Below are positions 154 through 48,500 of a stretch of 64,000 nt of DNA, piece after piece. Source of the DNA: Plumapathes pennacea (lineage: Eukaryota; Cnidaria; Anthozoa; Antipatharia; Myriopathidae). Within the stretch, counting starts at the first letter, position 1, and every line of letters starts with the position of its first letter. The notes beneath the pieces are model-generated. The model had not been told where the DNA came from. It worked only from the letters and a program-made list of their open reading frames with translations, and did no database searches. Made by a program: the position numbers and the translations under genes. The DNA lies in the NCBI GenBank assembly GCA_964036295.1, contig OZ038465.1, positions 3,791,115 through 3,855,114 on the forward strand. Reading direction: 5' to 3'.

Positions 154-3100
154 TGGAGGGTGGCGATGATCGTCTTACGACAGCGGTTGCCGTCGTGAAC
201 ATCCAAGTTACCGATGAAAATGACAATCCTCCAGATTTCACCCAAAAAGTCTATGGTTACACGTTCAGCGACATTAGCACCACTGATATGTTCAAGATAA
301 AGGCAACTGATAAGGATCAAGGCCCCGGCAGCATTGTGAAATTCAAGCTTGGTGACCAAAAAGAGGTAGATACGGTATAAGACGTAACTATAGGTAACTC
401 CTCGTCTTTTCTCAACTTCTTTTAAATTGATTCTATTGTCATTCACTGAGTTTTCCTTTTAGTCAGTTGACTGTGGTCTTATTTTCCCCGTGCTCCACTG
501 AGCCCTTTTTTCTTGTATCTGTCTCTCATAACAAGCTGCAAAGATTACTGACCAGTGTCTTGTCTGTCTTTTCCTTTCTGATAAGTCTGGTGGCAAGAGA
601 CTTGTCACAGTAGTAGCGTATGATCAAGGCGTTCCAAGCCTGAACAGAAGTGTTGATGTGGTCATCACAACAGGGTAATCATATTGTGCGCATGTGCGTC
701 AAACTCCTCCTTTTCTTAAGTCATCTTGCTCTTGTTATTGTACTTTGTTCTTTTGTTTTTGCTCTTGCTCCTGTTCTGGCCGTTTTGCTCTTGTCCTTGT
801 CCTTGCTCTTGTTCAGTTGCTCTTCCTCTTGTTCTCAGTGCTCCGCTTGACGAAACGCATATTGGTTTGCTGTCCGGTTAACTTACACACTTATATTTGT
901 TCTTTATCCAGGCCCAAGATAAGCTGCGAGGCCATGGTGTTTGCTGTATCTGAAGACGGTACAATCTCTACACAGACTTTGTGTAGCTTCGTGAAATTAC
1001 CAGATACAAAACGGGCGACGCTTCAAGTTGGCGACGGTCATAAGGTACGCCAATTCCATGTGGTCCCACAGCAGCAGCCCTTGAGGAAGACTGGGTATTC
1101 CGAAAACTTGACAGAAGAATTGGATATTGTGGAAATTACGAACGAAACAAGTGTAGACCTTCTTACCATCGTTGTTTTGATGTCCCAAAGGAATGGGACA
1201 AAAGCTAAGGACAAATAGTGATTGAACCAAAACCATTTCCGACATTTTACCAGTGAAAAGGCCCAGCAAAGAAATACAGAAACATGACTGTGATATAGGT
1301 TTGACTTGAAAGAACAAAAAGTACACAATACAAAAGATCCATTGATCACTATCTTTTTCCTCTGAGCTTGGAATACTAATGTTGTGACCTTTGCCAGATG
1401 TCCTGCGAAGCAAATGGCAACACCAATCCGGAATACCGCTGGATGAAAGATGGCAGGTTTGTGTCTAACTATGATTCATCCGGGGATTACGTCATCGAAA
1501 GCGCCACGGAGGATGACGAAGGCAATTACTCGTGCCTAGCCTCCAGCGCGGCCGGATTGATACAGTCACGTCTGTTTCTAGTCACTGTAAACGGTAAGAA
1601 GATGTAAATGACACATTTCCCCTGTGTTGCTTATGGGCTTACTACAGAAAGTAGTTCCAAGTAGAATTTTCTCCGCAACTTACATCCAAGATTCTGATAC
1701 GTAATATTTCCAATAATCAGGTTTAACTAAGTAGTTTGGTAGGTTACGCTTTGTTTTGAGCTATAGTAAATTGTATTTTTGTTCATCTTTGTTCAAAGAT
1801 TTACATTTAGCTAAGAAGAGCTTAATTCTGGCCTAAAATACAACTAGACTCTGGTCCATTTCGTTTCGGATCATACCGTCCTAAACCAAAGCTACAACGT
1901 TTCATCATCTCTGTTCCTGGGTGTCTGGAAATAAGGACCCTTACCAACATGCCTAGAGTATTAATTTGGAGTTACTCTTGTTATCTTTAGAGAAGCCAAG
2001 AATCGTGAAGCAACCAGAACACTCGACTGTTCAACTCGGAGATACAGTAGCCCTGAGCTGTGAAGCCTCAGGGGACCCCAAACCCGAATATCAGTGGTAC
2101 AAGAATGGCGTTCCAATGGCAGAGGCCAGCGGTATCACGCCTAACCTGCCGGACCTCGAGCTGAAGGGTGCCGTGGAAGAAGACCAAGCTGAGTATTTCT
2201 GCGAAGCAATCAACGTCGCTGGAAAAGTGCGTTCCGAAACAGTTTCCCTGCAAGTGTACGGTACGTTTGAGTGATACCCAGGATTCCTGACATAAAGTAC
2301 AGTCAATGGAGACCACAGGCCAATGTGAACCTTTCAAAATCTATTTATAGATGTGCTTAGGTTCGGTACCAGGCATCGCGCTGTCTGGTGACGTGACGTT
2401 ATAATTGGTTGCTTTTTTAAATGTGTTTACCTTGGGACGCTAGCTCTATTACTTCTCTCTCTTTAGTGAAGTTCAATTTGAAACAGTAATATGAACATTG
2501 TCTTGCTTGGATTCGCAGGAAAAGATGCCATGGTTTCCATGGAACTGACAGTTAACAAACCAAACCTCGCGAAGCAATGTCACCTGTTCGAAAAGAGCGA
2601 TTTTCAGGTAAAGGAAAATAATGTACAGCGAGATATCTTTTTGCAAGATAAAGAAATAATTGGAGTGTATGTAGGAGTTATTCAAACCTATACGCTCTCA
2701 TCCCAATTCTTCCCTTGTGAGTGATCAACTTCATATTTTTGTTTTCTACTTCGACCTCTCGACATTAGGCTTGACTAATAGTAAAACACTCGTTCTCTTG
2801 TAAGCGAACAAATACTGATATTCCTCGCCTTTTTTAACTGTTTCTTGGCCAATTTTTTGCAGTCTTAAAATATGAATAATTATGAATGTATTGTTTCTTT
2901 AGAAATTGCTGGGCAACGCGCTAGGAGCGAAGGTGTTCTTGACAAAAGTATCCGCCCCTGCAATGTGCGAAGCGCACCCCTGTAACTCGAACCCATGCCT
3001 CCATGGAGGTCAATGCGAAAAGGCGGGCGCTGATGGCTACAAATGCCTTTGCAAACCTGGATGGTCTGGGAACGACTGTGGAACAGATGTGGATGAATGT

Positions 3101-6100
3101 CTTGGTGGTGAGTGGTCAAATAATCAAATAAGGAATGGAGTCAGTGAAGGAAGCAAGGAAGCAAGGAAGGGAAGAATCGTGAATGAGTGTCTCTGTTATC
3201 ACAAAAGCAATCACGAAAAAAAAATGCGAAGAATAACTAAATATGAAAGAAGGGAAAGAAATAAAGGCAAGAAGGAAAGGGAAAGGAAAGGGAAGATGGG
3301 ATTAGTATAAGAGAGAAGACAAAAAGGTTGATAGTAAGTATTCTCACAATTAAGTTGAAATGCATCTGTAATGATCACGATACCAGAAGGACAGCATGAA
3401 TCTATCAAACCCATAGCCACTAAAAACAAAAGAGAATATCAAAGTTACCAAGACATGGTTTTGAAACAGATACAGAACGGCAACTGGTGAATTTCTAGTA
3501 TACCCTTTTCCTTGGGCGTACGGAAAGCACAACTGATCCAACACACAAAGTTTAGATGTTGATCCGCAATTTCTCACATTTCTATTACAGGACCTTGCTT
3601 TTCAAATGGAACTTGTCGCAACAGTGATGGATCTTACGAGTGTCAGTGTTCTTCAGTTACAACGGGCAAGGACTGTGAACTGGCCGTGGGCGCTTGTACA
3701 CCAGTAACTTGCAAAAACGATGAAGTGTGTGCCCTCCGCGAGAACGATGAGAGTGGGAGTGGGTCTAAATGCGTTAACAAAGACTTAGAGATTGTGATGT
3801 TGCTCCCAGAAGACCTTGGAAAGGAAAACGTCAAGAAGTTCGACCTCGAGAAGGAAATTGAAAGTTTGATTAGAGCCGCATTGAGCAGTAATAATGAGGT
3901 AAGTTATTTTAATTATGAAGTCGAACGGGTTTAGATTTTTGGGTTTTGTAAAATTATGAACAAACGTGCAGTAATTATAGAGCACGCGGTTACTTTCAAC
4001 AGCCAATGCGAAAACCGCTTCGTTTTGTATCACAGTCTGGGAGAGTTTTAAACACTAGTCTTAGTTAGTAAAACTGAGGATGCAAGTCTCATCACAGGGC
4101 ACAGAGAAGTTCGGTCGTTTTCCGTTATGTAAGACCATACATACAGTAACTTGATGAACGATACCGCCTCCGCGCGCCCGCGAAGTAATTATTCTGCGGT
4201 ATCCTTCATGTAAGTCAATATATAGGGTTTTACATAATAAAGCAAGCGAACTCCTCTGCGCCCTGTGGTATTATTAGAAGTATGCCTAAATTCCTTGCAC
4301 TACCAATGCACACTTAACTCAACCACATAGGTGTGACCGCCCAAGTATATTTTCAGTAAGTGCGTACACTAGCATTCGCTGCCTTTTTCTCTGGCTAAAC
4401 TCTATGATCAATTGCAGTATGCTGTGCTACTTTATTGGCTTTCGATAATCTAAGTATTCTTTGCCGTCTCGGCAGAAAACAAACTCGTCAAGAAAATCCC
4501 GCTCTGCCCCGGAGGAGATAGAATATGGGGCGTGTTCTGTTCGCATCACTTCCGTGAAAGACAGGAAGGTGAAATTTGTGCTGCTGTGCCCTGCTCACGT
4601 GCAAGGAAAGTTGGAACCAAAAGCAATGCAGGACTTCGTATGTGGTATCATGTTTACATCCGGGAAATCTTCTTCTTGTGGAGGAAATGCCGTCATGAAT
4701 ACGCCGCTACCCCCCACGACTTACGCACCGCTGGAGCCGATGACGTAAGTTCTGACGTCTTGTCAGTTAGATTTGTAATTGAATATCCAACGTTGTAAAT
4801 ACGTATTCACCATTTCTTTAACCGAACACCACCCAAAAGGAACAATCAGAAATAGCAAGCCTATGTTTCTTTGCGTGATTCGTAGCATGTTTATCAAAAT
4901 GTGTCGGCCATGTTGGATTTGAATGGGAGTTTGTTATTTTCAACATTGAATCCATTTCAATGCGACAAAGACTTCAAGAAATATACTTGAGAAGGTAGAA
5001 TGTATTTCATTGTCTTCGGAGGTCCGTGAGAAACTCGAGGTGTGTCAAAAACCTTGCAAGGTGCACCTGCGTGCGCAAGGCTGATGGATATTACATCTTC
5101 GTCACTCAGATTTCAATTAGTATAGAATGTTCACGTGATATTTTATCGACTTCATCGTTTCTACTTGCAGCGTGAAGCTCGAATTCTTCGCAAAAGAGCA
5201 GAATTCTGGGGAGTCATTGGATGCTGATGAAGTTGTTAGCAGGATGGAGAGCGAAGAGGCGAAAGAAATGTTGGAGAAAGAAGGCTATACAATGATGTCA
5301 GTTACAAAAAGTAAGAAATGGCCTTTTGGAAATGTTCTGTATCATGCGTGGAGCCTTCCAGTTATGAACTTTGCTTTACTATATTTTGATGAGTGCGTTC
5401 AGTTGGGAACAGTTAAAATTTGTTCCGGAGCTTGTTTATTCTAGATTATTTTGTATATTTAAACAGTCACCAACGCATTTGTAGTCAAACTAAATGATTT
5501 CACTGATCAAGACAGCCTGTCTATAACGGTTATATCGAAAAACTCAATAATAAGTCTAATAAGTCGAATAAGTCACGGGGACTTGTTTCAAGAAGTCACG
5601 TTAATATGAACTATATGGCTATACCTTAATTTTACCTGCAGAATATTTCTTTTTGTTTTCGACAATGCGTAAATAGAGAAAAAAAGAAACACTACTGATT
5701 GAATATTTTCTGCTTGTGACTGATCTATTGCCTTTTTATATTTCAGCTAATAAACTTGAAGAGAAAGGTAAGAAAATTGTAAGCTAAACGTTAGGCCATC
5801 TCTTTATCTTTTCCTTTTTTTTTGTGACTCGTTTGTCTTATCTACTTTTTAAACAAAATCCCTTGTCTGGGATCAAATACAGGCTATTTTCGAGATACTT
5901 GTTGCCTCTGTTTTAAAGCTAGGCCCAGTGCAAAACCTTGTTTATGAAGGCATGTCATTCTTTTGCAAATCAAAAGGTTTTTGCCAAAAGGAAGACGAGA
6001 TTCAAATCATAGTTCGGTTTATGATGCTTTAATGTAAAGTGTTACTTTGTTTTCGGAATGACATTAACACAGTTGCACTTGTATTTTTGTTTGCAGAAGA

Positions 6101-7762
6101 AAAGACTCCTGTTGCTCTTATTGTGGGAATGGTCTTGGGTCTCCTGGTTCTGTTTGTCTTGATCATTGTGGTCGTCGTTGTAATAATGAGAAGGTAATTA
6201 TTGGGGAAAATAGGAAGGATTCGTCTTGTATTCTTCGCCACTTTCCGTTTCGGCAGATATCTGATTTCGATGTCAGCTTGTAACATTACAATTTACAAAG
6301 TAACGTCAAAGTTTAAAAAATTTGCAAACCGCATTTTTATGCAAGTTTCTGATTTTGTGTAATATTGCAGCACGTGCTTTGTCTCGCGTTATCATGCTTG
6401 TTTTAGTTGCATATTACGCTCTGTCAGTTTATATTTTGTTCTCTATCGTAAAGCCTTTCCGAGAAGCGAACAGTATAACTTAGCGACTTTGTTCATTTGC
6501 CACGTTTCTATCGTGACTATTACAAGTATGTAATTTGCATAGCCCGTTCTTTATCGCTCTAGTTGAATTGATCTCATTTGCCTCTAACCCAATGTCTTCT
6601 CTTTTCTCAGGAGAAGTAAGGGCCATATGAATTCATTGGGTCGCTCCGTAATGTCTCGTAGAGGAAGCCAGGAGAACATACTCCAACGGGACTCCTGTGC
6701 AAAGGAAATATCGCGCTCAGAGAAGAACTACTTGAACGCGGTTTACGACGCAGATTGCCGAGATATTTCCGACGAGGAGTCGAACCAGTTTATGGTAGAA
6801 GTGAACCTTGGAAAGAAGCCGCGAAAAGCTTATCAGCTCCCAACCGAGGTTAGTAATGAGAAATATATAAAAACACGTGATCTGTTTACGAGCAGTGCAC
6901 ACGAAAGTGCAACCGTCGTCGACAGACACCTGTGTAAACTTTTATTCTTGGTTCCTGGCCAAAATAATGGTTTGCAAGTCGACGCAAAATCAGAGCTTGC
7001 ATCGGCCTCCCACATTTTAGGGAGTGGATCATGGGGTCGATGATAAACTTGCATACTTAATTCTGGGAGAAACTTGCGTCGGATGCATACAAATTTGAGC
7101 TCGACCAAAGTCGACGCAAGTCAATGAAGTCTTCCCACAACAAAACAAAACAGTTAACGTAAAGTTGAAAACTAGTATCAACTTGCGGAAACCGTTTAAC
7201 CAGGAATTAACTCTTCTATTCCCAAAGTCTGGACCTTAATTGTACAAGTATGAGTTATAATAAGAGAATTGATCCTAACTCTGATCAGCTTGAACCCAAA
7301 CAAGAATTCACCAGTCATATTTTTCACATGAGTTTGCGGGGATGTTTAATAAATCTCAGTGTCGCTTGCTTGCCGATTCTTGTCTACTTCTGATAGAATT
7401 TGTTACTTTTTTAGGTCCTCAATGCAACTTGGTACTATCAAAACCTAACAAAGGACGAAGCTGAGGATACATTGGGCGGAAAAGTCCAACCGGGCACTTT
7501 CTTGGTCCGAAAAGGCAACACTGACCAAGAGCTCATCCTTTCGATCAGGGCTCCAGAGGGAGGCCCATTATTCAGGCACCTGGTGATAAGGCACTTAGGC
7601 AAGAGCACTTTTAAGGCCCAGTTTGGTTCTTTGAAAGAAAAGGAATTCAGATGTGTCAATGACATCATTGAGCATTTCAAAGTCACTCCCATCAAGTTCG
7701 ACGAATATTCCCCAGATGTAGTGTTGACAGTACCTCATAGGAATATCGATGTGCTGGTGTAA
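154..7762 (+). CDS. Cadherin-Ig-EGF transmembrane receptor with C-terminal SH2 domain (5' partial)
   Basis: Fourteen exons keep phase: 154-365, 586-674, 912-1044, 1398-1593, 1991-2260, 2519-2607, 2903-3107, 3591-3898, 4476-4744, 5171-5310, 5747-5767, 6097-6193, 6611-6848, 7415-7762 (stop TAA). They give about 870 residues; the 5' end lies outside the window. In order: cadherin repeat end with DENDNPPDF and a short last repeat (residues 1-100); Ig 1 (about 130-210, C..W..DEGNYSC); Ig 2 (211-300); EGF 1 (345-390); calcium-type EGF 2 starting DVDEC; a Cys-containing membrane-proximal region (430-640); transmembrane helix (649-674); basic tail; SH2 (about 760-850) with FLVRKG and HLVIRH, so the phosphotyrosine-binding Arg and the betaD His are present. 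The tail has NYLNA (Grb2-type pYxN), RRGSQ and the end IDVLV. Inferred role: adhesion receptor coupled to tyrosine-kinase signalling. The last cadherin repeat lacks its central strands, so it is degenerate or an exon was missed. I know no standard metazoan gene of this architecture. Confidence 0.88.
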
Positions 7763-8639: not shown

Positions 8640-10656
8640 TTCATGCATGAATTTCATGAGATTCTGAAGGGTTTCTGAAAGTTTAGAGGGTTTTCAAATT
8701 TAGCCCCGAAATGGCAAATTTTTGAAAAAATGGTAAGGCTATAGCCCATGATTTTTGCCAAAAACGGCCGATTTTTCGACAAAAAATTTTGAAACTCTTG
8801 AAACTTTCAGGAAGCCTTCCTGAGACTATGACGAAACTTTTTGCAATATATCTGCCTTATTTTATTTCAGCCGTTGATGAGTTATAGCAACAAAACCACG
8901 TAAAACTTGAGGCTCCTTTGTTTAAAAGTGTGAGATTTTAGTCGAAGATTTGCTTTCATTTCTCGTGACCCGCTGGATAAGATATCAACATTTATATACC
9001 AAAACCGTCCTTATTGTCCCAGGAACGCTTCCTGATAATTTGATGCGATTCTGAAGGGTTCCTAAAAGTTTAGGGAGTTTTCAATTTTAGCCCGAAATGG
9101 CCCAATTTTGAAAAAAATTATAAGGCTATAGCCCATGATTTTTGCCAAAAACGGCCGATTTTGACCAAACTTTTTAACCTCTCGAAACTTTCAGGAAACC
9201 TTCCTCAGAGACTATAACGAGAATTTTTGCCATACATTTGTCTTATTTTTCATGAGCCATTGACGAGACATAACAATGAAACTACGCATTTTTTGGTTCT
9301 TTTGTTGAAAAATAAGCAATCTGCGAGGCGACGATATAATCTTATTACTTGTAACTCGTTCATTTAACTAGCACAAATATTATACTAAAACCTTCGCAAT
9401 ACTCCCAGGAACATTTCCTGAACGTTTTATGCAATTCTGACATTTGGTCGAAAAAAGCCCAATTTTGAAAAAAATGATATAGAGGATATTACACGGCGCG
9501 AAGATATGAATTTTATTTTCGAATGGTAAAAACAATATTTTACGAACGAGCGCTTCGCGAGATCCATATCTTCAAGCCACCGTGTAATTTTCTTTTTATT
9601 ATATTAGACACGAGCGTTTTACGAGAAATTGCACAAACAACCGTGCAAAAGCGGGAAATGATGCCAACGATATCCTCATTAGTGAGGATATGGAAAATAC
9701 GCCACTCGGGTCCCGGATGTAGTTTCGTATGGATTTTACGCACGGTATATTTTCCAGTAAAACACTCGTGTCTATATAATAAAAGGCTATAGCCCATGCT
9801 TTTGGCCCAAAATGGCCGACTTTGAGCAAAATTTTTTGAAACTTTCAGGACACATTCGCAGGACTATAACGAGACTTTTTGCATTACATTTGTCTTATTT
9901 TTCATCAGCCGTTGACGAGATATAGCAAGAAAACTACGCATTTTTTTTGTTGGAAAAGTACGCGATGTGCGAGGTGATGATTTTCTCTCATTACTCGCGA
10001 CCACTTCATTTAAATATCACAAATATTATATTAAAACCTTCGCAATACTTCCAGAAATATTTCCTCAAACTTTCATGCAATTTTGGGATTTGGTCGAAAA
10101 TGGCGAAATTTTGAAAAAATGGTAAGGCTATAACCCATGCTTTTGGCCCAAAATGGCCGATTTTGAGCAAAATTTTAAAACTCTTGAAACTTTCAGGACA
10201 CATTCCCAGGACTATAACGAGACTTTTTGCATTACATTTGTCTTATTTTCCATCAGCCGTTGACGAGATATAGCAAGAAAACTACGCATTTTTTTTTTTT
10301 TTTTTTTTGGTTGGAAAAGTACGCGATGTGCGAGGTGATAATTTGCTCTTATTACTTGCGACCACTTCATTTAAATATCACAAATATTATATTAAAACCT
10401 TTGCAATACTCCCAGGAATATTTCCTGAAAGTTTCACGCAATTCTGAGATTTGGTCAAAAATGGCCAAATTTTGAAAAAATGGTAAGGCTATAGCCCATG
10501 CTTTTGGCCAAAAATGGCCGATTTTGAGCAAAATTTTAGAACTCTTGAAACTTTCAGGACACATTCCCAGAACTATAACGAGACTTTTTGCATTACATTT
10601 GTCTTATTTTTCATCAGCCGTTGGCAAGATATAGCAAGGAACTACGCATTTTTTTT

Positions 10657-10691
<35 letters not shown>

Positions 10692-11910
10692 TTGGAAAAG
10701 TACGCGATGTGCAAGGTGATAATTTGCTCTTATTACTCGCGACCACTTCATTTAAATATCACAAATATTATATTAAAACCTTCGCAATACTCCCAGGAAT
10801 ATTTCCTCAAACTTTCATGCGATTCTGAGATTTGGTCAAAAATGACGAAATTTTGAAAAAATGGTAAGGCTAATAGCCCATGTATTTGGCCCAAAATGGC
10901 CGATTTTGAGCAAAATTTTAAAACTCTTGAAACTTTCAGGACACATTCCCAGAACTATAACGAGACTTTTTGCATTACATTTGTCTTATTTTTCATCAGC
11001 TGTTGACGAGATATAGCAAGAAAACTACGCATTTTTTTTTTGGTTGGAAAAGTACGCGATGTGCGAGGTGATGATTTGCTCTTATTACTTGCGACCACTT
11101 CATTTAAATATCACAAATATCATATTAAAACCTTCGCAATACTTCCAGGAACATTTGCTGAAAGTTTCATGCGATTTTGAGATATGGTCGAAAATGGTCA
11201 AATTTTGAAATAATTGTAAGGCTATAGCCCATGCATTGGCCAAAAAGGCCGATTTTGAGCAAAATTTTAAAACTCTTGAAACTTTCAGGACACATTCCCA
11301 GGACTATAACGAGACTTTTTGCATTACATTTGTCTTATTTTCCATCAGCCGTTGACGAGATATAGCAAGAAAACTACGCATTTTTTTGTTGTTGTTGGAA
11401 AAGTACGCGACTTGCGAGGCGATGATTTTCTCTCATTACTCGCGACCCGTTGATTTAAATATCACAAATACTATATTGAAACCTTCGCAATACTCCCAGA
11501 AATATTTCCTCAAACTTTCATACAATTTTGAGATTTGGTCGAAAATGGCCAGATTTTGAAAAAATGGTAAGGCTATAGCCCATGCTTTTGGCCAAAAAAT
11601 GGCCGATTTTGAGCAAAATTTTAAAACTCTTGAAACTTTCAGGACACATTCCCAGGACTATAACGAGACTTTTTGCTATACATTTGTCCAAATTTTGAAA
11701 ACATGCTAAGGCTATAGCCTAAGATTTGTTGCCAAAAACGGCCGATTTTGGCGAAATTTTCAAAACTCTCGAAACTTTCTGGAAACATTCTGGGACTATA
11801 ACGAGACGTTTTGCAATACCTTGCCTTATTTTATTTTAGCCGTTGATGAGAAATAACAGCGAAACCACGTAAAATTTGATGATGCTTTGTTCGAATTATC
11901 TGCGATTTTC
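8640..11910. repeat. Tandem satellite array, ~350 bp unit, about nine monomers
   Basis: The block ACTATAACGAGAC (or close variants) recurs near 8823, 9211, 9863, 10211, 10572, 10953, 11303, 11657 and 11795. The usual spacing is 348-381 bp. Spacing variation comes from a poly-T stretch that grows to about 40 bp near 10660-10690. The 652 bp gap between 9211 and 9863 is one monomer plus a ~300 bp inserted element. The last unit is truncated (138 bp). The first two units and the last are most diverged and the central ones most alike, as expected for array homogenisation. Reading frames in it (for example 10227-10475 and 10514-10828) are repeat by-products. Confidence 0.93.
9480..9780. mobile_element. 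Foldback/MITE-like element inserted in a satellite monomer
   Basis: Satellite sequence breaks after AAAAAAATGATA and resumes at AAGGCTATAGCCC near 9783, so about 300 bp are foreign. The same element recurs at about 53450-53777 in an unrelated context. There both hairpin arms remain; here one arm next to the GCGCTTCGCG apex (9550-9559) has been lost. Flanking TATA on both sides could be a short target duplication. It has no coding capacity. Confidence 0.85.
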
Positions 11911-12881: not shown

Positions 12882-18744
<5,863 letters not shown>

Positions 18745-18950
18745 GTTTGTAGCTTGCTTTCTTGACAATCGGGGCAGAAAAAATCAGTTTAAATTCACTA
18801 AAATCTGAAAAAAACTACGTTGCTCTCTTCACCCGCCGACGTTCGCCATTACTGTGGTAAACCGCTGACAGGCTGTCCCAGAAACCTTTGCAGCGACTCT
18901 TACAGCCTCCCAGCATACCCCGCGCTCGCCCGACGTCCGCCATTTTGAAA
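18745..18950. promoter_or_regulatory. Putative bidirectional promoter, ISY1 / NDUFA12
   Basis: The two start codons face away from each other with 206 bp between them, so both core promoters must share this interval unless untranslated exons lie elsewhere. GTCCGCCATTTTG at 18935-18947, just before the NDUFA12 ATG, fits the YY1 consensus, a site typical of 5' UTRs of housekeeping and mitochondrial genes. A weaker GTTCGCCATTA lies near 18841 on the ISY1 side. I see no clear TATA box. Factor binding is inferred. Confidence 0.55.
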
Positions 18951-19370
18951 ATGTCTTTTATATCGAATTTTGTACGTGAGCAGAGAAACGTCCTCAAGTC
19001 CGTTGGAGGCTGGAAGAACGCGCTCTTCCGACTGGTGAGGGAAGGCAATGTGCGTACTGGAAGTTTTATTGGAATAGACAAGTATGGCAACAAGTACTAT
19101 CAGAACAACACCTACATGTTTTCAAGGAATCGTTTTGTCGAGTACCCATACGGAGTGAATAGATTTGACTTCGATGCGAGCCAGGTTCCCCCTGAATGGC
19201 ATCGTTGGCTGCACTACATGACGGACGACCCTCCAACAACTGACCCACCAGAGGATAAGAAGTTTTTGAAGAGCCATATTCAAAACCGTACAGGATCGAA
19301 GAAGGAGTACGTTCCGTACAGTACGACCACGCCGAAAATAGAGGCGTGGGAACCACCAAAAAGTAACTGA
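18951..19370 (+). CDS. NDUFA12: NADH dehydrogenase (complex I) subunit NDUFA12
   Basis: One open frame of 139 residues (the human protein has 145). The family core is clear: DKYGNKYYQNN, RFVEYPYG, VPPEWHRWLHYMTDDPPTT, and YVPYSTT near the C-terminus. NDUFA12 (B17.2) is an accessory subunit of the mitochondrial inner-membrane complex I, at the junction of the peripheral and membrane arms. The frame could be extended to 18888, but the family alignment starts at MSFISNFV, which follows a YY1-like site, so 18951 is preferred. No intron interrupts the coding sequence. That could be ancestral loss or a processed copy, but its place at a shared promoter with ISY1 and its intact frame suggest a working gene. 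Confidence 0.96.
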   Translation: MSFISNFVREQRNVLKSVGGWKNALFRLVREGNVRTGSFIGIDKYGNKYYQNNTYMFSRNRFVEYPYGVNRFDFDASQVPPEWHRWLHYMTDDPPTTDPPEDKKFLKSHIQNRTGSKKEYVPYSTTTPKIEAWEPPKSN

Positions 19371-23405: not shown

Positions 23406-25468
23406 GAAAATCAGATATTTTGATCTGAAATCACGTAAGGGTTTTTAGGACCGGGCGGCACACTCCCACCCAAAATTGTGATGAGTATGAGTACGTGGTT
23501 TAATAGCCGGTTGTAACTGCTACGATAGACTTGGGTTATGAGGAACTGGACAGGGGTGTGGCTTGCAAATTTATACAATGACTATCTTCCAGTTTTGCAG
23601 TACCAGCTGCGGTCGAATGATTTTTTAATGCCAAGATCTAGGTTTACGAAACTGATATTTTGGTACCAATTCACATTGCACGCAGTCTAGGGGTCTTCAT
23701 GAGTTAAAAAGTGCGGTACTACTGAACAATAGATAGCTACAAGAGAAAATTGGATGTTGTTGGGCAGTGCCTTTTTATTTCTAATTTTAATCTAATCCTA
23801 TAAGATCAGGTCATAACATTTGGAAGGTGGTCCTTACAAAACTAGTATAGATATGCGTCTTAATTCCGACGCTAATGATCCAAACGTCACCCAAAACAGA
23901 ATTTCAACATATCACGCATCAATGTCACGTTGATGCGTACATCATCTAACGAATATGTAAATATAATATACGTATTATATGTGTTTATATATGATTCACA
24001 GTTCCTTGTGAAAAACAAATCTCTGCAACGTTAAGTCACTTCACAGGATGCTCCTAAGCTAAAGATAGCTAATACTAGAACGTATAATAACATAACCTGA
24101 TACTAGGGTTAGCGCTCGAAAGGTCAGCTTGTAACACCACATTTCACTATAATTTCAGATGATGTCAGACGTACGTTCTGACATCACAAGCAAAACACAT
24201 TAAAACTAATAAGCAATATCAGCATGTGCAATTATTGTAATCATAATGATTTCTTTTTGGTGAGCTTTTTCTGGGGTGCATTCTTTAATTTGTAACCATT
24301 GTGGAATAGGAATTGTTGAAATGGCACGTTTTAGTTGCTTCTTTTTTTTTCCGGATTATTATTTTGTGTACATTCAAGTACAGTACATAACGTCACTGTG
24401 GAAACAATGTGAACAGTTAAAGCCATAGGATTTATCGATCATGCTGTATACCAAAGATTTTACTGATCATACTGGTCAGCAATTCCTATTCAAAAAATAG
24501 ATCACAATGTGCACCATTAACATCCAATAACAGGAACCAAACAACGATAGTTCCCTATAAATAACAACTGCATGGTCTCTATGCATTTATGTTGGAATTT
24601 TCAAATAGCCTTCAGCTCATAATATGATCTTAAATATTTTCCGTATCAGCACAATAGATCATTGTAGCATTGTCTGCATTATTCTTGTTGGATCTAGTAA
24701 ATAATGACCGAGTTAATACTGTATCATATCTATTTTACCCAGCAATTACAGCAAGATCCAATGCTGCTAAATTTGTTGACTCATGCAAACACTAACAGTG
24801 TTTTCTGGTGGAGTTTGGAAATTGGCCCAAAAGATGGTACAGGATTCAAGGGGAAATATTAAATCAAATTGCACAAACATCAAATATTTCTAAACTGGAA
24901 TAAAAGCCCTGAAATTTTGGCAAGAAGAAGAAAAACATAAATTCAGCAAATTCCAATAGTACAAACAATTTTAGTTAAAAAAAAAACATATTTAAACTTG
25001 GCATCTATAGTAGGTGTGTTGTAAAAACTAACTAATATGCATCAATCAAATCCAGCTGTTACAATCCCCCAGGGAAATTTGCACGGCAACCACAAACATG
25101 TACCATAATAGGAAGAAATTGGGTAAAATTGTCAGCTTTCATTGTGAGGATGTAATAAGTTGCTGGTAAACCAAAGACTGTGGCGGATCAAGGGAAAATT
25201 CAAGGGGTTCAGCTGAACCCCCTTTGGCTCACTTATTGGTATAAAAAAAAAAAAAAAAAAAAAGCTAATGAATGTATACTTTAGCTCAAAAGTACCTTCA
25301 ACAAATCTACAAACCCCTGCTCAAACCCCCTTTCACAAAATCCTAAATCTGCCCTAGGAAGAGGGGGGTGGGGATAAGGAAATGATTGATGCATTATGCT
25401 TAAAGGCAGGCAAATATCACACATGATATCATGTTCACTCAACAGATGCATTTTGTCCTCACTACAAT

Positions 25469-28400
25469 CTACACTTCAGTCTCTTGTACCTCACTGGGTG
25501 CCATACTGTTCATCTCTCCAGTTTGTTCACCATTTGGATCTAGGTGAGAATTAAGCTGACCTGGATACAGCTCACTAGGGGAGGACAAACCTTGGGAGAT
25601 GCCACGCTCTATTTCGTTGGCCAGAAGGCTGCTGCCTTCCTGTTTTCTTAACAGGCCAATGAAATGCCGGATAGTGCTGCCCTCCATCTGCTCATAGTAC
25701 TTGAACAGCTGCTCAGCTGGGTTTTGTAACCTGGAGTCCCAGAACTCAATGCGGCTCTTATCAACACCCAGTTCTTCAGCAATGAGCTTCCATGGAGCAT
25801 ATTCTGATGATAGAACACGCACTTTATTCATCCAATATGTAATTTATGACATACTGTAATGTACAGTATTACAACATTATCCTTGAATAATTTAATGACG
25901 CAATATTGTTTGGGCTTTTCTGGAATACTGCAGGAATAGCACTGCTGATCAATAAAATCTCTTTGGTTTGGAGTTAATTCAACTTGAAATGAATTGGCAG
26001 CTGTTTGCAATGCCAGGATGAAAGTATTCAACCCAATCTAAATAAAATTTCCCCCAAACCAAAAGGCAACTGTTGAAGGGGCAATTCAGCTATTCATATT
26101 CCAAAATAGACTCAAACAAACAAAGACTAATACTGGTTGCTTCAAGAGTACAAAATAATGCACACAAGTTGAATGATGCACCTTCTGAGGTTCAATCTAC
26201 AGTATCTAAAGCACCAATTAAAGTTACTGTTAACACATTACAAATAATATTACCATCTTTGCTGTGAAGTTTGAAGGCCATGTCGCGCCTCCATGCTACT
26301 GGCAGGCAAAGAAACCGAGAGTCTAGACTGACACTTGGAATGGATGCATTACATGTACATGCTGGTGGTGCTGATGACACTGAAGGGGCTGAGGAGAAAG
26401 AAAGGTAGAAACACACAACAAGGTTACCATACAGTATATCAGACCAGATTTACCAACAGATTGGCCAATTTGTACTAACATGCACAGTGTTGGTACAGTA
26501 CCTGTAGTAAGAGGTCTATCTGGATTACATGGAACTTCACCAGCTGGTGGAGCTGGGATGCCCTGTAATGGAACAACTTCCTCCACATCACGGTTCAAAT
26601 CCTCTCTCTTGATCAACACATCCTGTCGGTACTTATAGCACCTCCACAGGGTGTACAATATAACAACCAAACCAACAATAAGGCAGAAGCAAACTAAAAC
26701 CCAATTCCATGGACTTGGGAGGAAACTCAGAAGTCCTCCCTTGTTGCTGCTAATACCCACAGGAGTTGTCATACTTTTAGTTGTGTTAGTGGGCTGTGGA
26801 TAAGTTGTTTCAGGTACAGGTGCAGTGTTTGTAAGAACAAAATAAGGGGTACCTGAAACAAGAAACATGGCATGGTTATAATACAGTATTGATGTCTGCA
26901 AAATTGTATGCAAAAGCAAACTATAAAGAGGTTATTACACGGGAAGGAGTTCAATATGGCTGGGTATTTTTACGAGTTGGTTTTATTTTTTCGAGCCTGC
27001 TTCAGGTGAGAAAAAATAAAACTGACGAGTAAAAATACAGCCATATTGCATAACTTTTCATGTAATAAATTGTTTATTAATATACAACAAATGAAGCAGG
27101 GCAAACGTTCTCGTCACACGCAAAATGAAACAAAAAATGATGCGTTCGTAAATTTTGCTTGCAAAAATTGATCAGTCGTAAGCTAATAAACAAGTTGATC
27201 TGGTTTTGACCTTTATTTGTGCTCGAAAATGTGAAGTTGTGTAATAAGGAATCTTATTTGACTTATGTTAGGAAAAATGCAAAATGAGGCAAACCTGGTG
27301 TGGTTTTATTCAGAACATAACCATCACCTGGTTTACAGATCCTGTCATGTTCCGTTACACAGCTTTTCTCTTCATGTTGTCCAGGTTTACAGGGTGGAGA
27401 GCATGGCAGACAACTGGACCCCATCTTATAAAAGTAGTGGCCAACCTTGCATTTGTTACAAATTGGCTTAGTGGTTGGAGTACATTCCCGGGCAACATGT
27501 ACATTGCCATAACCACACAGACTGTCGGGGTCATCAGGGAAACACCTGTGAATGTAAGAACACAGTCACGTTACTGCACTGTCCTGTGGACTGTTCTGTT
27601 CTGTTCTATTCTGTTCTGTACTTCACTTTATTATATGGCACTGATACTACGCACGCTACGATTGGTTAATTTACCGGTCCATACTTTCCTGTACGGACCG
27701 CAAATTGATTTTACGCACATTCTGATTGGTCAATTTTACCGGTCCATAACTTACTGTACGGACCGCAAAATCAGTTTGCACATGTGGATCGCAAATGATT
27801 ACTCAAAAAGTTGCTAAACGTTTGTCATAAAAGGCCCAGAAGTGCAATGGGAAGTTTAAACGTTCCGGATACTCACTGTTAAGTTATGATGATCGGGGAA
27901 AGTTTACAATTTTGGAAAATGACCGTTACGAAGAAGGAAAATGTCCGAGGAAAAAATTGCTTGCGACCTCAGCCGTCATTGACAACAAGTGCTGCAGAGT
28001 ATGGAGGGTTGTTTCACCCCTGTGTTAAAATTTGCACACTTGCCAGGAAGAAAGTGGAAAGCGAACAATCACCGTGAACAGTTATGACTAAAACCGTGCA
28101 AGAATCAAGTTTTGCAAACATGTTTGCTCGTCATGGCGCACTGTGAAGACTGTAAATAAATTTTTCACAATGCACGAGAACTCTGTATTTCAAAATCACT
28201 GACTGGGACGAAAACGCCGTGGTGATTTGAGGACGTTTATTTTGCTGGAAGAAACCTAAACGCTCCACGAGGAGGCAGGAAAATTAAGCGGTGAGTTTTG
28301 AATAATATAACTATGTGTCGGTCGCAGTTTGTGGTGAAATGATTTTCTTTTAGTGCCATTTTGCCTTCTACATTATTGTGCGTGTAAGAAACTTATTCAA

Positions 28401-31400
28401 AAGAATAAAAAATACTCTGAGTTACAAAGCAGTTTCTTCTGGAAAGAGATAAGACTGCAGTTTTTTTAAATCTTTAGTGAGCGAGCAAGGGCGAGTTCGA
28501 GTCGTTCACCGAATAAAGTTCACTGCAGTGTCGTTGTTTGACATACGCTATGGGTCATTTCATTCAGCTCAGAACAAATTAGTATTTATCTAGGCAGTTG
28601 GTTCGACAGACGCTTATTTTCTTTCAAGATTTTCAAATCGGTAGAATTGTAAGCTGTTAACTGAATTTGTTGTGAAAACAAACGTGCGTAATTCATGCCT
28701 GATCGCGACTGATGTTGTTGAATGAACAAGACGAGTACTCGTCTTGTTCAAGGCCCCAGCCTTGTTTTATGTTTGCCGAAAAATCTAAAGCCATATAATA
28801 AATATCTTATTAACCTCGTTTGCTTGGTCCGTACCGTAAGTTATGGATCCTCATTTTTTTCGTCGCCTTATGGCCCTCGCGCGAAGCGCGCTCGGGCCAT
28901 AAGGCGACGAAAAAAACTCGGTCCATAACTTACTGTACGGACCGCGTACTCGGTTAATAAGATCTATGTAACTATGTAGCTGTGGCCAAATGGACTTGCA
29001 TGCCAGGGTGGCCAAAGCTCTAGCTCCCCTGGGGGATGGGGGGAAGTGTATGGCTCTTGAATAATTCTATTGGGGGAGGTTCTGCCCAGGCTTTCAACCC
29101 CTACTTACCCTTTCAAACACCATTCTGGTGTTCAAATGGTGACCCTTTCATATACCTCTGATATGAACATGTCTTTTTCAAGGGACAACTGCAGAATTGG
29201 TACAGCTTTGCGAAACGAAACAAGTTCACAATAATTATGAGGCATATTTAAGCAAAACTTACGATGTGCAAGGATCTGTAGCACTAGATATGTCGGAATA
29301 TTCGTGTCCGCTAATGCAATCGTAACACACTGTATCTTGTGTAGCTGTGCACTTTGTTTTCACGCCTTGTCCCGGTGGACATGGCTTGCATTTTAAACAC
29401 TTCTCGCCGTTCCACCACCACTGGTCGCCACTGGAAGCCGGGCACTGTGAGGAATTCTGTTGACAAAACAAACAATATGTTTAAATGAACTGACAAGTCA
29501 GCCGCCATGTTTTTCAAACAGAGTTCGCAAAGAACCTTGGGTTCAGCTGGCTATTACGTCATTGCACAGCGAACGATCGGAACTGACCTGATGAGCTGAA
29601 ACAAAGTCGAGGTGTTCATGAGCTGTAAAAAATGACTGAAGTGTCGGCAGGTCTTTTCCGCGGGTAGCGGGTAACGGGTGACGGGTAGCGGGTGACGGGT
29701 AACGGGTAGCGGGTAACGGGTAAGCGAGTAACGGGCAGCGGGCGACGTTCATTTCCCTCACTTGTTTATTTGGTGTTTGTTTGTAAAATAAATAATTTTT
29801 ATTACACGAGACACATTTACCTCGGTGAAAGCATTTACTTTACTGCGGTAAAAGTACGACGCGTCTAGACAATTCACAAAACCGTGGTAAGTGTGTTTCA
29901 GAACAATAGAAAATTTACCGTAGTAAATGCATCGATGAAACAACTCAGAGCACATTAACGGAGTCAAACAAACAGCTTCTTTGGCGGGAATTCGGCATAC
30001 ATTTTTGATTAGTCAAACAACAGCTGTAGACAGTGAAGCGTATTCCTTATACGTTTTACCGTGTAAGAAACAATTTGATTGCCAATTCATTGTTCTTACC
30101 AACGCCTTCCCAGAGGAACACTTGTTAAGTTTTTTTCTTGTAACACACTTGTTTTGTTGGAGAGAATAGCAATTAGAATAGCGCTTAAAACAATACATGG
30201 CCACCAAAGGACCATACCTCTTTAAAAGGAAACATTTGCAATTGATTACCAAACAAAATTAACGTTATACAGTATTTTAATGAGATTTTATTAACTATAT
30301 GTTATTATAATATCTCTTTGGTTTGATGGGTGACATTGCTGTACGTATTGGAACTGTATTTCTTATATCCTTCCTGACTTTTTTCTTCGTTGAAGGCAAA
30401 TTCATTTGGGGTCGATTTGCAGTTAGTTCAAATTACACGTCAATCAATAAACACTAATTGTCACCAAAGGTAGCTACTTGCGGTTCCATTTAAAATAGAA
30501 CATCAATCGCATTCACGGGTGTTTAACACGAGGTGGTGACATTGCTGACAAACACGACACAAGTCAAGATATGTGTAATGCATGCGCGAAAGAGTCACGG
30601 TTGCTTTGACTGCAATACTGATCTTCATCGACTGAGAAAGCGATTGAGTGTTACCCGTCGCCCGTTACCCGCTACCCGTCACTTGCTACCCGCTACCCGC
30701 TACCCGTGGAAAAGACCTGCCGCTGAAGTGTAGCCAACCAATTCGTGCCCGGATAAACCTCTCCAATTCCGATAGAACACGGCGTACCTCATCGCACTCA
30801 CAACACGTCAGGTGAAACAAAGGTCAAGCCGGCGGCTTTCTACATCAACTGGAATTAGTGCTGAGCAAGCACATCCAGTTCTAAGGGCCGGAAATTCTTT
30901 GACGTACGTATGTTAATGTCCGAGTGATATAAATTCGCTTGCTACAGCCACCCATATGGCGCCGCTATACTGTTAATAGTTCAGCAGAGTTGCTTTTTTC
31001 CAAGCTAATCAGGGTCGACACATTCTCAGTCGTTTCAATGCGCCCACAATCCTCACAAAAATTACGCAGTACCGCCGAAACCGGCGCGGTTGAGTAATAA
31101 ACACATCTCAGTTTCATTCAAGTATGTTTTACGACACTTTAGGTAATAATAAGGGTCATTGTGGACGCCTCCAAAAGACATGGCCGGTCGACCACCGAGA
31201 CATGGCACTAATAACTCTTTAAACTGGAACCTGTCAGTCATTTTTCTTCTTTTGAATAGACCCCAGAAAAAAATCAGAATATCCGATTGTCATTTCTCCC
31301 CTTCTTTGATCACCGCCGCCACACTCGCGTAGCCCTGATTGCAACGAAAATCAATCTGTATCTCGGTCCTAAGAGTTATAGTTTAAGCCCTGTCTGTGGA

Positions 31401-43624: not shown

Positions 43625-45511
43625 AGTACCTGCTGCGGTCGAATGATCTTTTAATGCCAAGGTCTAGTTTTTACGAAACGGATATTTTGGTACTAATTCA
43701 CATTTCACGCAATCTAGGGGTCTTCATGAATTAAAAAGTGCGGTACTACTGTACAATACATTGCTACCAGAGAAAACATGAAGTTGTTGGGCAGTGACTT
43801 TTTATTTCTAATTTTATTCTAATCCTACAAGATCAGGTCATAACATTTGGAAGGTGGTCCTTACAAAACTAGTATAGATATGCGTCTTATTCTGACGCTA
43901 ATGATCCAAACGTCACCCAAAACAGAATTTCAACATATCACGCATCAATGTCACGTTGATGCGCACATCATCTTACGAATATGTAAATATAATATACGTA
44001 TTATATGTGTTTATATATGATTCACAGTTCCTTGTGAAAAACAAATCTCTGCAACGTTAAGTCACTTCACAGGATGCTCCTAAGCTAAAGATAGCTAATA
44101 CTAGAACGTAGTGTATAATAACATAACCTGATACTAGGGCTAGCACTCGAAAGGTCAGCTTGTAACAACACATTTCACTATAATTTCAGATGATGTCAGA
44201 CTTACGTTCTGACATCACAAGCAAAACACATTAAAACTAATAAGCAATATCAACATGTGTAATTATTGTAATCATAATGATTTCTTTTTGGTGAGCTTTT
44301 TCTGGGGTGCATTCTCTAATTTGTAACCATTGTGGAATAGGAATTGTTGAAATGGCACGTTTTAATTGCTTCTTTTTTTTCCGGATTATTATTTTGATGT
44401 TCATCCAAGTACAGTACATAACGTCACTGTGGAAATAATGTGAACAGTTAAAGCCATAAGATTTATCGATCATGCTGTATACCAAAGATTTTACTGATCA
44501 TACTGGTCAGCAATTCCTATTCAAAAAATAGATCACAATGTGTACCCTTAACATCCAATAACAGGAACCAAACAACGATAGTTCCCTATAAATAACAACT
44601 GCATGGTCTCTATGCATTTATGTTGGAATTTTCAAATAGCCTTCAGCTCATAATATGATCTTAAATATTTTCCGTATCAGCACAATAGATCATTGTAGCA
44701 TTGTCTGCATATATTATTCTTGTTTTATCTGGTAAATGATGACCGAGTTAATACTGTATCATATCTATTTTACCCAGCAATCACAGCAAGATCCAATGCT
44801 GTTAAATTTGTTGACTCATGCAAATACTAACAGTGTTTTCTGGTGGAGTTTGGAAATTGGCCCAAAAGATGGTACAGGATTCAAGGGGAAATATTAAATC
44901 AAATTGCACAAACATCAAATATTTCTAAACTGGAATAAAAGCCCTGACATTTTGGCAAGTAGAAGAAAAACATAAATTCAGCAAATTCCAATAGTACAAA
45001 CAATTTTAGTAAAAAAAAAAAAAAAAAAAACTTACTTAAACTTGGCATCTATAGTATGTGTGTTGTAAAAACTAACTAATATGCATCAATCAAATCCAGC
45101 TGTTACAATCCCCCAGGGAATTTGCACGGCAACCACAAACATGTACCATAATAGGAAGAAATTGGGTAAAATTGTCAGCTTTCATTGTAAGGATGTAATA
45201 AGTTGCTGGTAAACCAAAGACCGTGGCGGATCAAGGGGAAATTCAAGGGGTTCAGCCGACCCCCCTTTGGCTCACTCATTGGTATATAAAAAAATTAAAA
45301 AAAAAAAAGCTAATGAATGTATACTTTAGCTCAAAAGTACCTTCAACAAATCTACAAACCCCCACTCAAACCCCCTTTCACAAAATCCTGAGTCTGCCCT
45401 AGGAAGAGGGGGGTGGGGATCAGGAAATGATTGATGCATTATGCTTAAAGGCAGGCAAATATCACATAATATCATGTTCACTCAACAGATGCATTTTGTC
45501 CTCAGTACAAT

Positions 45512-48500
45512 CTACACTTCAGTCTCTTGTACCTCACTGGGTGCCATACTGTTCATCTCTCCAGTTTGTTCACCATTTGGATCTGAGTAAAAATCAAGCT
45601 GACCTGGATACAGCTCACTAGGGGAGGACAAACCTTGGGAGATGCCATGCTCTATTTCATTGGCCAGAAGGCTGCTGCCTTCCTGTTTTCTTAACAGGCC
45701 AATGAAATGCCGGATAGTGCTGCCCTCCATCTGCTCATAGTACTTGAACAGCTGCTCAGCCGGGTTTTGTAACCTGGAGTCCCAGAACTCAATGCGGCTC
45801 TTATCAACACCCAGTTCTTCAGCAATGAGCTTCCATGGAGCATATTCTGATGAGAGAACATGCAATTTATTCATCTAATGTGTAATTTACAGTATGACAT
45901 ACTGTAACAAACAGTATTACAACATTATCCTTGAATAATTTAATGATGCAAATATTGTTTGGGCTTTCCTGGAATACTGCAGGAATGGCAATGCTGATCA
46001 ATAAAATCTCTTCGGTTTGGAGTTAATTCAACTTGAAATGAATTGGCAGCTGTTTGCAATGCCAGGATAAAAGTATTCAACCCAATCTAAATAAAACTTC
46101 CCCCAAACCAAAAGGCAACTGTTGAATGGGGCAATTCAGCTATTCATATTCCAGAACAGACTCAAACAAACAAGGACTAATACTGGTTGCTTCAAGAGTA
46201 CAAAATAATGCACACGAGTTGAATGATGCACCTTCTGAGGTTCAATCTACAGTATCTAAAGCACCAATTAAAGTTACTGTTAACACATTACAAATAATAT
46301 TACCATCTTTGCTGTGAAGTTTGAAGGCCATGTCACGCCTCCATGCTACTGGCAGGCAAAGAAAGCGAGAGTCTAGACTGACACTTGGAATGGATGCATT
46401 ACATGTACATGCTGGTGGTGCTGATGACACTGAAGGGGCTGATGAGAAAGAAAGGTAGAAACACACATGGTTACCATACAGTATATCAAACCAGATTTAC
46501 CAACAGATTGGCCAATTTGTACAAACATGCACAATGTTGGTACCAGTACCTGTAGTAAGAGGTCTATCTGGATTACATGGAACTTCACCAGCTGGTGGAG
46601 CTGGGATGCCCTGTAATGGAACAGCTTCCTCCACATCACGGTTCAAATCCTCTCTCTTGATCAACACATCCTGTCGGTACTTATAGCACCTCCACAGGGT
46701 GTACAATATAACAACCAAACCAACAATAAGGCAGAAGCAAATAAAAACCCAATTCCATGGACTTGGGAGGAAACTCAGAAGTCCTCCCTTGTTGCTGCTA
46801 ATACCCACAGGAGTTGTCATACTTTTAGTTGTGTTAGTGGGCTGTGGATAAGTTGTTTCAGGTACAGGTGCAGTGTTTGTAAGAACAAAATAAGGGGTAC
46901 CTGAATCAAAAAGACAGAAACAAGAAACATGGCATGGTTATAATACAGTATTGATGCCTGCAAAATTGTATGCAAAAGCAAACTACAAAGAGGTTATTAC
47001 ACGGGAAGGAGTTCAATACGGCTGGGTATTTTTACGAGTCGGTTTTATTTTTTCCAGCCTGCTTCAGGTGAGCAAAGGGCTTGTAATAAGGAATCTTATT
47101 TGACTTATTTTAGGAAAATGCAAAATGAGACAAACCTGGTGTGGTTTTATTCAGAACATAATCATCATCTGGTTTACAGACCCTGTCATGTTCAGTTGCG
47201 CAGCCTTTCTCTTCATATTGTCCAGGTTTACAGGGTGGAGAGCACGGCAGACAACTGGGTCCCATCTTATAAAAGTAGTGGCCAACTTTGCATTTGTTAC
47301 AAATTGGCTTAGTGGTTGGAGTACATTCCCGGGCAACATGTACATTGCCGTAACCACACAGACTGTCGGGGTCATCAGGGAAACACCTGTGAATGTAAGA
47401 ACACAGTCACGTTACTGCACTGTCCTGTGGACTGTTCTGTTCTATTCTGTTCTGTACTTCACTGTATGTAGCTGTGGCCAAATGGACTTGCATGCCAGGG
47501 TGGCCAAAGCTCTAGCTCCCCTGGGGGATGGAGGGAAGGTGTGTATGTCTCTTGAATAATTCTATTGGGGGATGTTCTGCCCAGGCTTTCAACCCGTATT
47601 TACCCTTTCAAACACCAATCTGGTGTTCAAATGGTGACCCTTTCATATACCTCTGATATGAATATGTCTTTTTCAAGGGACAACTGCAGAATGGGTACAG
47701 CTTTGCGAAACGAAACGAGTTCACAATAATTCTGGGGCATATTTAAGCAAAACTTACGATGTGCAAGGATCTGTAGCACTAGACTTGTCGGAATATTCGT
47801 CTCCGCTAATGCAGTCGTAACACACTGTATCTTGTGTAGCTGTGCACTTTGTTTTCACGCCTTGTCCCGGTGGACATGGCTTGCATTTTAAACACTTCTC
47901 GCCGTTCCACCACCACTGGTCACCACTGGAAGCCGGGCACTGTGGCAAGGAATTCTATTGAAAAAACAAACAACATGTTAAATGAATGACACACTAAAAG
48001 ACTGTGCTACTACACTGCACCAAAGCCGTGCGTTGTCAACTTGACAAACTGTTAGTTAGTCGCCATGTTTTTCAAACAGAGTTCGCAAGGAACTTTGGGT
48101 ATAGCTGGCTATTACGTCATGGCACCGCGAACGATCGGTGGCTGACCTGATGAACTGAAACGATCCAAAGTCGAGGTGTTCATGGCATAATATTATTATA
48201 CATGTACCCTAGCTGTGAAAAATGAGTGAAGTGTAGCCAACCGACTCGTGCCCGGATAAGCCTCTCCAATTCCGACAGAACACGGCCGCGTACAACATCG
48301 TACTCTTCCCATTCAACACGTGAGGTGAAACAAAGGTCAAGCCGGCGGCTTTCTATATCAACTGAAGTGCTGAGCAAGCACATCCAGTTCCAAGGGCCGG
48401 AAATTCTCTGACGTACGTATGCCTGAGTGACGAAGTAATAATAGATAGAGTTCATACTTATTACAAATTCGCCACCTTACACCCACCTAGAGTACTTTTC

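Follow-up and report, generated by a model that had tools for sequence, protein, structure and literature searches.

A Plumapathes pennacea gene predicted to encode a hedgling with a cytoplasmic SH2 tail

The 64,000-nucleotide stretch of Plumapathes pennacea DNA analyzed here (C4:3791115-3855114 of a 290-Mb genome, hereafter the window) almost certainly carries the 3' portion of a gene for hedgling. It holds only the C-terminal quarter of the gene for a giant cell-surface adhesion protein, cut by the window edge. A search of the same contig upstream placed the start codon (ATG) at window position -18109, 18.1 kb upstream, and the resulting model, which runs to 7762, joins 35 exons into 3516 residues with 21 cadherin linkers, uninterrupted by any stop. 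Its upstream part encodes, in order, a signal peptide, Hedgehog-N, VWA and a cadherin array. The window part consists of 14 exons on the + strand (154-7762) that splice into 870 residues plus a stop, and ends in a complete SH2 domain. As predicted from genomic DNA, the model is an open gene with the layout of an SH2-tailed hedgling, and its product would lie at the cell surface and span the membrane once. We consider it highly probable that identity and architecture are both correct, namely a single-pass hedgling of about 3.5-thousand residues reaching from Hedgehog-N to SH2; what holds back greater confidence is that the counterpart in the literature is a predicted gene too.

An earlier note on this DNA had read a single-frame exon chain from a cadherin repeat through two Ig domains, EGF and a transmembrane helix into SH2. 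That chain holds. All introns between window exons (13/13) are GT-AG and phase-compatible in one frame, and the positions given for the chain start (154), the transmembrane exon (6097-6193) and the SH2 exon (7415-7762) are exact. The note was also right to place adhesion modules, membrane helix and SH2 in one polypeptide, but overlooked the Hedgehog-N/VWA start 18.1 kb upstream.

Pfam scans of the model were conducted in parts, comprising the N-terminal 914 residues, upstream ORFs and the spliced 870 residues of the window. The N-terminal part matched HH_signal at residues 33-165 (5.1e-38), VWA directly thereafter at 176-345 (3.8e-48) and Cadherin (5.1e-74). Residues 6-24 form a hydrophobic stretch (mean hydropathy 2.2) that, judged by hydropathy, is a putative signal peptide. 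Genome-wide, the Hedgehog-N profile matched six times, four times at two other loci and twice upstream of the window on the strand of the gene, 18.0 and 16.1 kb before the window start. VWA, spread across two exons, and then the long cadherin array follow these two matches. The two upstream Hedgehog-N exons lie at window -18109..-17740 and -16082..-15945, and the domain reads HYEGRAVRLQ at the place of an Asp zinc ligand in Sonic hedgehog. Hedgling has been described as lacking a complete Hh/DD-peptidase motif (PMC6027127). None of the eight Hint matches in the genome lies near C4:3.77-3.80 Mb, where a Hint/Hog domain was sought. Two other loci, at C4:5.07 Mb and C3:20.01 Mb, carry Hedge exons beside a Hint exon and resemble the two Hedgehog genes reported from Nematostella by Bürglin (PMC2362128).

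The 21 cadherin linkers were counted over the whole model with a loose motif pattern. Each of the 11 linker-bearing upstream ORFs scanned matched Pfam cadherin at E<=3.9e-6, one of them under the curated cut-off. The earlier note had proposed a Pfam search of the spliced protein, and this search matched Ig_3 (1e-27, two stretches), EGF (2.3e-9, two stretches) and SH2 (1.1e-8), but left the window cadherin repeat without a match: no cadherin was found at E<=1 in the spliced 870 residues, and none in window ORF 135-377 or the preceding exon. Joined to that preceding exon, the repeat reached 0.013, below the curated cut-off. This weak repeat, with its linker DENDNPPDF, is the end of the array, after strong Pfam repeats just upstream.

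No other 19-residue stretch of the protein is as hydrophobic as residues 3302-3320, the transmembrane helix (hydropathy 3.7). The basic stop-transfer sequence RRRSK begins in the helix exon and is completed in exon 6611..6848, and a cytoplasmic linker of about 80 residues leads to SH2. No enzyme domain of the tail appeared among the Pfam matches of the spliced 870 residues. On the extracellular side, roughly 200 residues between the second EGF domain and the membrane (window 3591-5310) match no convincing Pfam family; an alternation of strand-like and helix-like segments, seen by eye, may reflect one or two small alpha-beta units, possibly SEA-like or ferredoxin-like.

Table 1. Features of the hedgling gene within the window.
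Feature	Position	Strand	Evidence
Exon, cadherin repeat end with linker DENDNPPDF and start of last degenerate repeat	154..365	+	Splice/phase
Exon, rest of last degenerate cadherin repeat	586..674	+	Weak acceptor ATAAG; exon-chain search at 1/4 thresholds
Exon, Ig domain 1 start (Pfam stretch from residue 136)	912..1044	+	Splice, Pfam, exon-chain search
Exon, remainder of Ig domain 1	1398..1593	+	Splice, Pfam, exon-chain search
Exon, Ig domain 2	1991..2260	+	Ig_3 best stretch 211-284, E 1e-27 for whole protein
Exon, Ig-EGF linker	2519..2607	+	Splice/phase; absent from exon-chain search at 4/4 thresholds
Exon, EGF domain 1	2903..3107	+	EGF best stretch 356-386; absent from exon-chain search at 4/4 thresholds
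Exon, EGF domain 2 and start of membrane-proximal region	3591..3898	+	Splice, Pfam
Exon, membrane-proximal extracellular region, without Pfam family	4476..4744	+	Splice, Pfam, exon-chain search
Exon, membrane-proximal extracellular region	5171..5310	+	Splice, exon-chain search
Microexon, 21 bases	5747..5767	+	Splice, exon-chain search
Exon, transmembrane helix and start of basic stop-transfer RRRSK	6097..6193	+	Hydropathy 3.7
Exon, cytoplasmic linker with tyrosines in YLNAV, YDAD, YQLP	6611..6848	+	Splice, exon-chain search
Terminal exon, complete SH2 domain and stop codon	7415..7762	+	SH2 4.5e-10 alone, 77/77 positions
Candidate polyadenylation signal AATAAA	8606..8611	+	844 bases past stop

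The exon before 154..365 lies outside the window, at -208..-92, and inspection by eye shows that a donor at 375 would be in phase as well. Support for the 3' end was sought with an exon-chain search that combined assumed consensus values for splice sites with codon usage learned from the cadherin exons that lie further upstream in this gene. At all four thresholds the search stopped at the SH2 stop codon, with 11, 10, 10 and 11 of the 14 window exons recovered exactly; exon 3591..3898 was recovered whole at one threshold and as 3657-3898 at the other three. The best chain was 3.9 bits ahead of the strongest alternative with an end other than 7762, and 7.5 bits ahead of the strongest one ending before 7415. 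Its score of 939.7 was reached by none of 20 shuffled 3' ends, the best of which scored 937.2. Thus, codon and splice scores alone slightly prefer inclusion of the SH2 exon. The search also erred: the Hedgehog-N/VWA 5' exons came out wrong or missing, and 2519-2607 and 2903-3107 were skipped at every threshold. Domain frames guided the manual placement of all of these exons, which makes the model circular as support for them, and the boundaries of the 5' exons are less sure than their domain content. The annotated frame had the best codon usage of the three in 14/14 exons. Codon usage alone is not decisive because, among 3313 open segments drawn from window 8700-60000, a comparison stretch that may hold exons of other genes, 301 score as high as or higher than one of the two cytoplasmic exons and 407 as high as or higher than the other.

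The SH2 exon contains no Met and has three in-frame stops within the preceding 150 bases, so it cannot be stand-alone coding sequence and must splice to an upstream coding exon; exon 6611-6848 ends in the matching phase. These features, and an identical layout in the Nematostella prediction Nv 200640 (PMC2362128), leave very little probability that the exon belongs to a separate gene, even though 566 bases of intron separate it from the preceding exon and the margin of the exon-chain search is small. A second alternative concerns the same intron. AATAAA occurs at 7348, upstream of the SH2 exon, and the frame of exon 13 stays open to 7040, so a major isoform without SH2 could end in intron 13 (read-through stop at 7041-7043, polyadenylation at 7348) beside a minor isoform with SH2. 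We regard this as improbable: with 1.84 AATAAA or ATTAAA per kb along the + strand of the stretch, approximately one is expected by chance in an intron of 566 bases, and the published Nv 200640 prediction includes SH2 (PMC2362128). As a predicted ORF, Nv 200640 gives no transcript proof that the transmembrane and SH2 exons are joined (PMC2362128).

The SH2 domain is complete, as the earlier note had claimed. It covers 77/77 profile positions (4.5e-10 for the exon by itself), and by eye both the FLVR arginine (GTFLVRKG) and the betaD histidine of the H-x-x-I-R motif are intact. The Pfam score is modest (39.9 bits): among the 56 rows for this genome the exon stands 33rd, and the four best SH2 exons score 89-106 bits. 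Such a score is compatible with a degenerate or non-canonical reader that serves as a structural tail only, as are two differences from Src: helix alpha-A begins with Lys-Asp rather than Arg-Arg, and Val occupies the position that we equate with the beta-D6 Lys. We nonetheless judge a purely structural tail unlikely, given the intact FLVR arginine and HxxIR histidine, a full-length profile match and a frame open to the stop. Within the genome at E<=1, the SH2 exon matched itself (1.8e-74) and then two sequences at 0.0025 (49% over 35 residues) and 0.61; no second copy was found among these three candidates. In the PDB, among the best 60 of 72 sequences at E<=0.01, the top chain was SHP-1, whose two SH2 domains together gave 4.8e-8 (3.6e-4 for the better of them), followed among single-domain chains by Nck2 (5.5e-6) and SHP-1 (7.7e-6), making SHP-1/SHP-2 and Nck2 the nearest solved SH2 chains of those 60. 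SH2 domains of SHP-1/SHP-2 and Nck2 are genuine phosphotyrosine binders, but they reside in soluble proteins without an adhesion part, unlike the present protein. The PDB and within-genome matches do not settle whether this SH2 domain was inherited or independently gained.

We put at roughly even chances the proposal that the protein is a contact receptor whose SH2 domain docks phosphotyrosine proteins; contact function, phosphotyrosine binding and partners are all predictions from sequence. A calcium-stiffened cadherin rod would present the Hedgehog-N/VWA tip to a neighboring cell or to matrix, and contact would gather the protein in the membrane. Inside, SH2 would dock tyrosine-phosphorylated partners at contacts, which is the simplest role because the FLVR arginine is intact. 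Alternatively, since the tail carries tyrosines in YLNAV, YDAD and YQLP, SH2 might bind phosphotyrosines of its own or an adjacent tail, in cis or between tails. Either way, adhesion and tyrosine-kinase state could be read together by a protein without a kinase domain. In Nematostella, hedgling has been reported from the gastrodermis and counted among the mesoglea proteins that are more abundant in primary polyps than in larvae (PMC12549020). No test of SH2 tail function was found in the literature searched. If the SH2 domain works, contact sensing and phosphotyrosine reading would reside in one chain, an arrangement testable in a laboratory cnidarian.

The remainder of the window has features of its own. 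A tandem array of a 361-base unit (9783-11688, 5.3 copies) begins about 2 kb past the hedgling stop, and an ATGATG-type repeat occupies 410 bases at 14935-15344. Two ORFs have Pfam-type matches, 18861-19367 (+) to NDUFA12 (3e-33) and 57505-57951 (-) to a trypsin domain, of which it covers the beginning (1.7e-14). A direct duplication (23643-27573 and 43670-47414) has a spacing of 19.8-20.1 kb and matched pieces that are 93-99% identical; a further matched piece (29046-29345 and 47541-47840) is spaced at 18.5 kb. Each duplicate copy contains a - strand ORF with a weak Death-domain match below cut-off (25472-25843, E 0.0017; 45515-45874, E 0.0013).

The closest published counterpart of the gene is Nv 200640, a predicted Nematostella ORF of 3592 residues with Hedge, VWA, 21 cadherin, two Ig and two EGF domains, a transmembrane segment and SH2 (PMC2362128). 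Judged from the published description of layout and lengths rather than from residue alignment, the two genes share the order of their domains, with Hedge first and SH2 last, as well as 21 cadherin units, a two-exon Hedge and a two-exon VWA, and are of similar size (3592 versus 3516 residues; PMC2362128). Behind the Hedge exons, Nv 200640 has an intron of 600 bp (PMC2362128) and the present gene one of 1136 bp, and for this reason the present gene is probably an orthologue of Nv 200640 in another species. From matching descriptions, we infer that Nv 200640 is N. vectensis hedgling. The SH2-tailed architecture has therefore been in print since 2008 (PMC2362128), a precedent missed by the earlier note, and the present gene adds a member. 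What it contributes is recurrence: the SH2 tail of hedgling appears again, its layout unchanged, in a genome set apart from the published Nematostella account by the length of at least one intron. A statement that the Hh domain of Hedgling occupies a single large exon (PMC8052667) conflicts with both Bürglin (PMC2362128) and the two Hedge exons found here.

Hedglings are known as membrane proteins with Hedgehog-N, VWA and cadherin domains from choanoflagellates, sponges and cnidarians, and are reported to be missing in ctenophores, placozoans and bilaterians (PMC4054682, PMC8061703). Hedgling and Hedgehog are stated to co-occur only in cnidarians (PMC8052667), in agreement with a cnidarian host for this genome. 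The choanoflagellate and sponge proteins resemble the present one in having Hedgehog-N beside VWA, many cadherin repeats and a transmembrane segment, but the main-text accounts of them mention no SH2 domain, and some of them have TNFR and Furin domains, which the Pfam scans of the present gene did not match (PMC4054682, PMC8061703). Hedgling, cadherin and SH2 were not found together in the literature searched; Adamska 2007, Abedin and King 2008 and Nichols 2012 lay outside this search and may mention the tail. Under the hedgling name, the SH2 tail seems to have been little noticed. Beyond hedglings, choanoflagellate cadherin-SH2 proteins have been published, as the earlier note said. Monosiga brevicollis gene model 11339 is a cadherin and SH2 membrane protein in print and, like the present protein, combines cadherin, transmembrane and SH2 parts in one chain; the comparison is by description, which does not state Hedgehog-N or VWA (PMC3082566). 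Choanoeca perplexa has a protein with a Protocadherin domain, without a Cadherin domain, that shares with the present one a transmembrane segment followed by an intracellular SH2 domain (PMC6040629).
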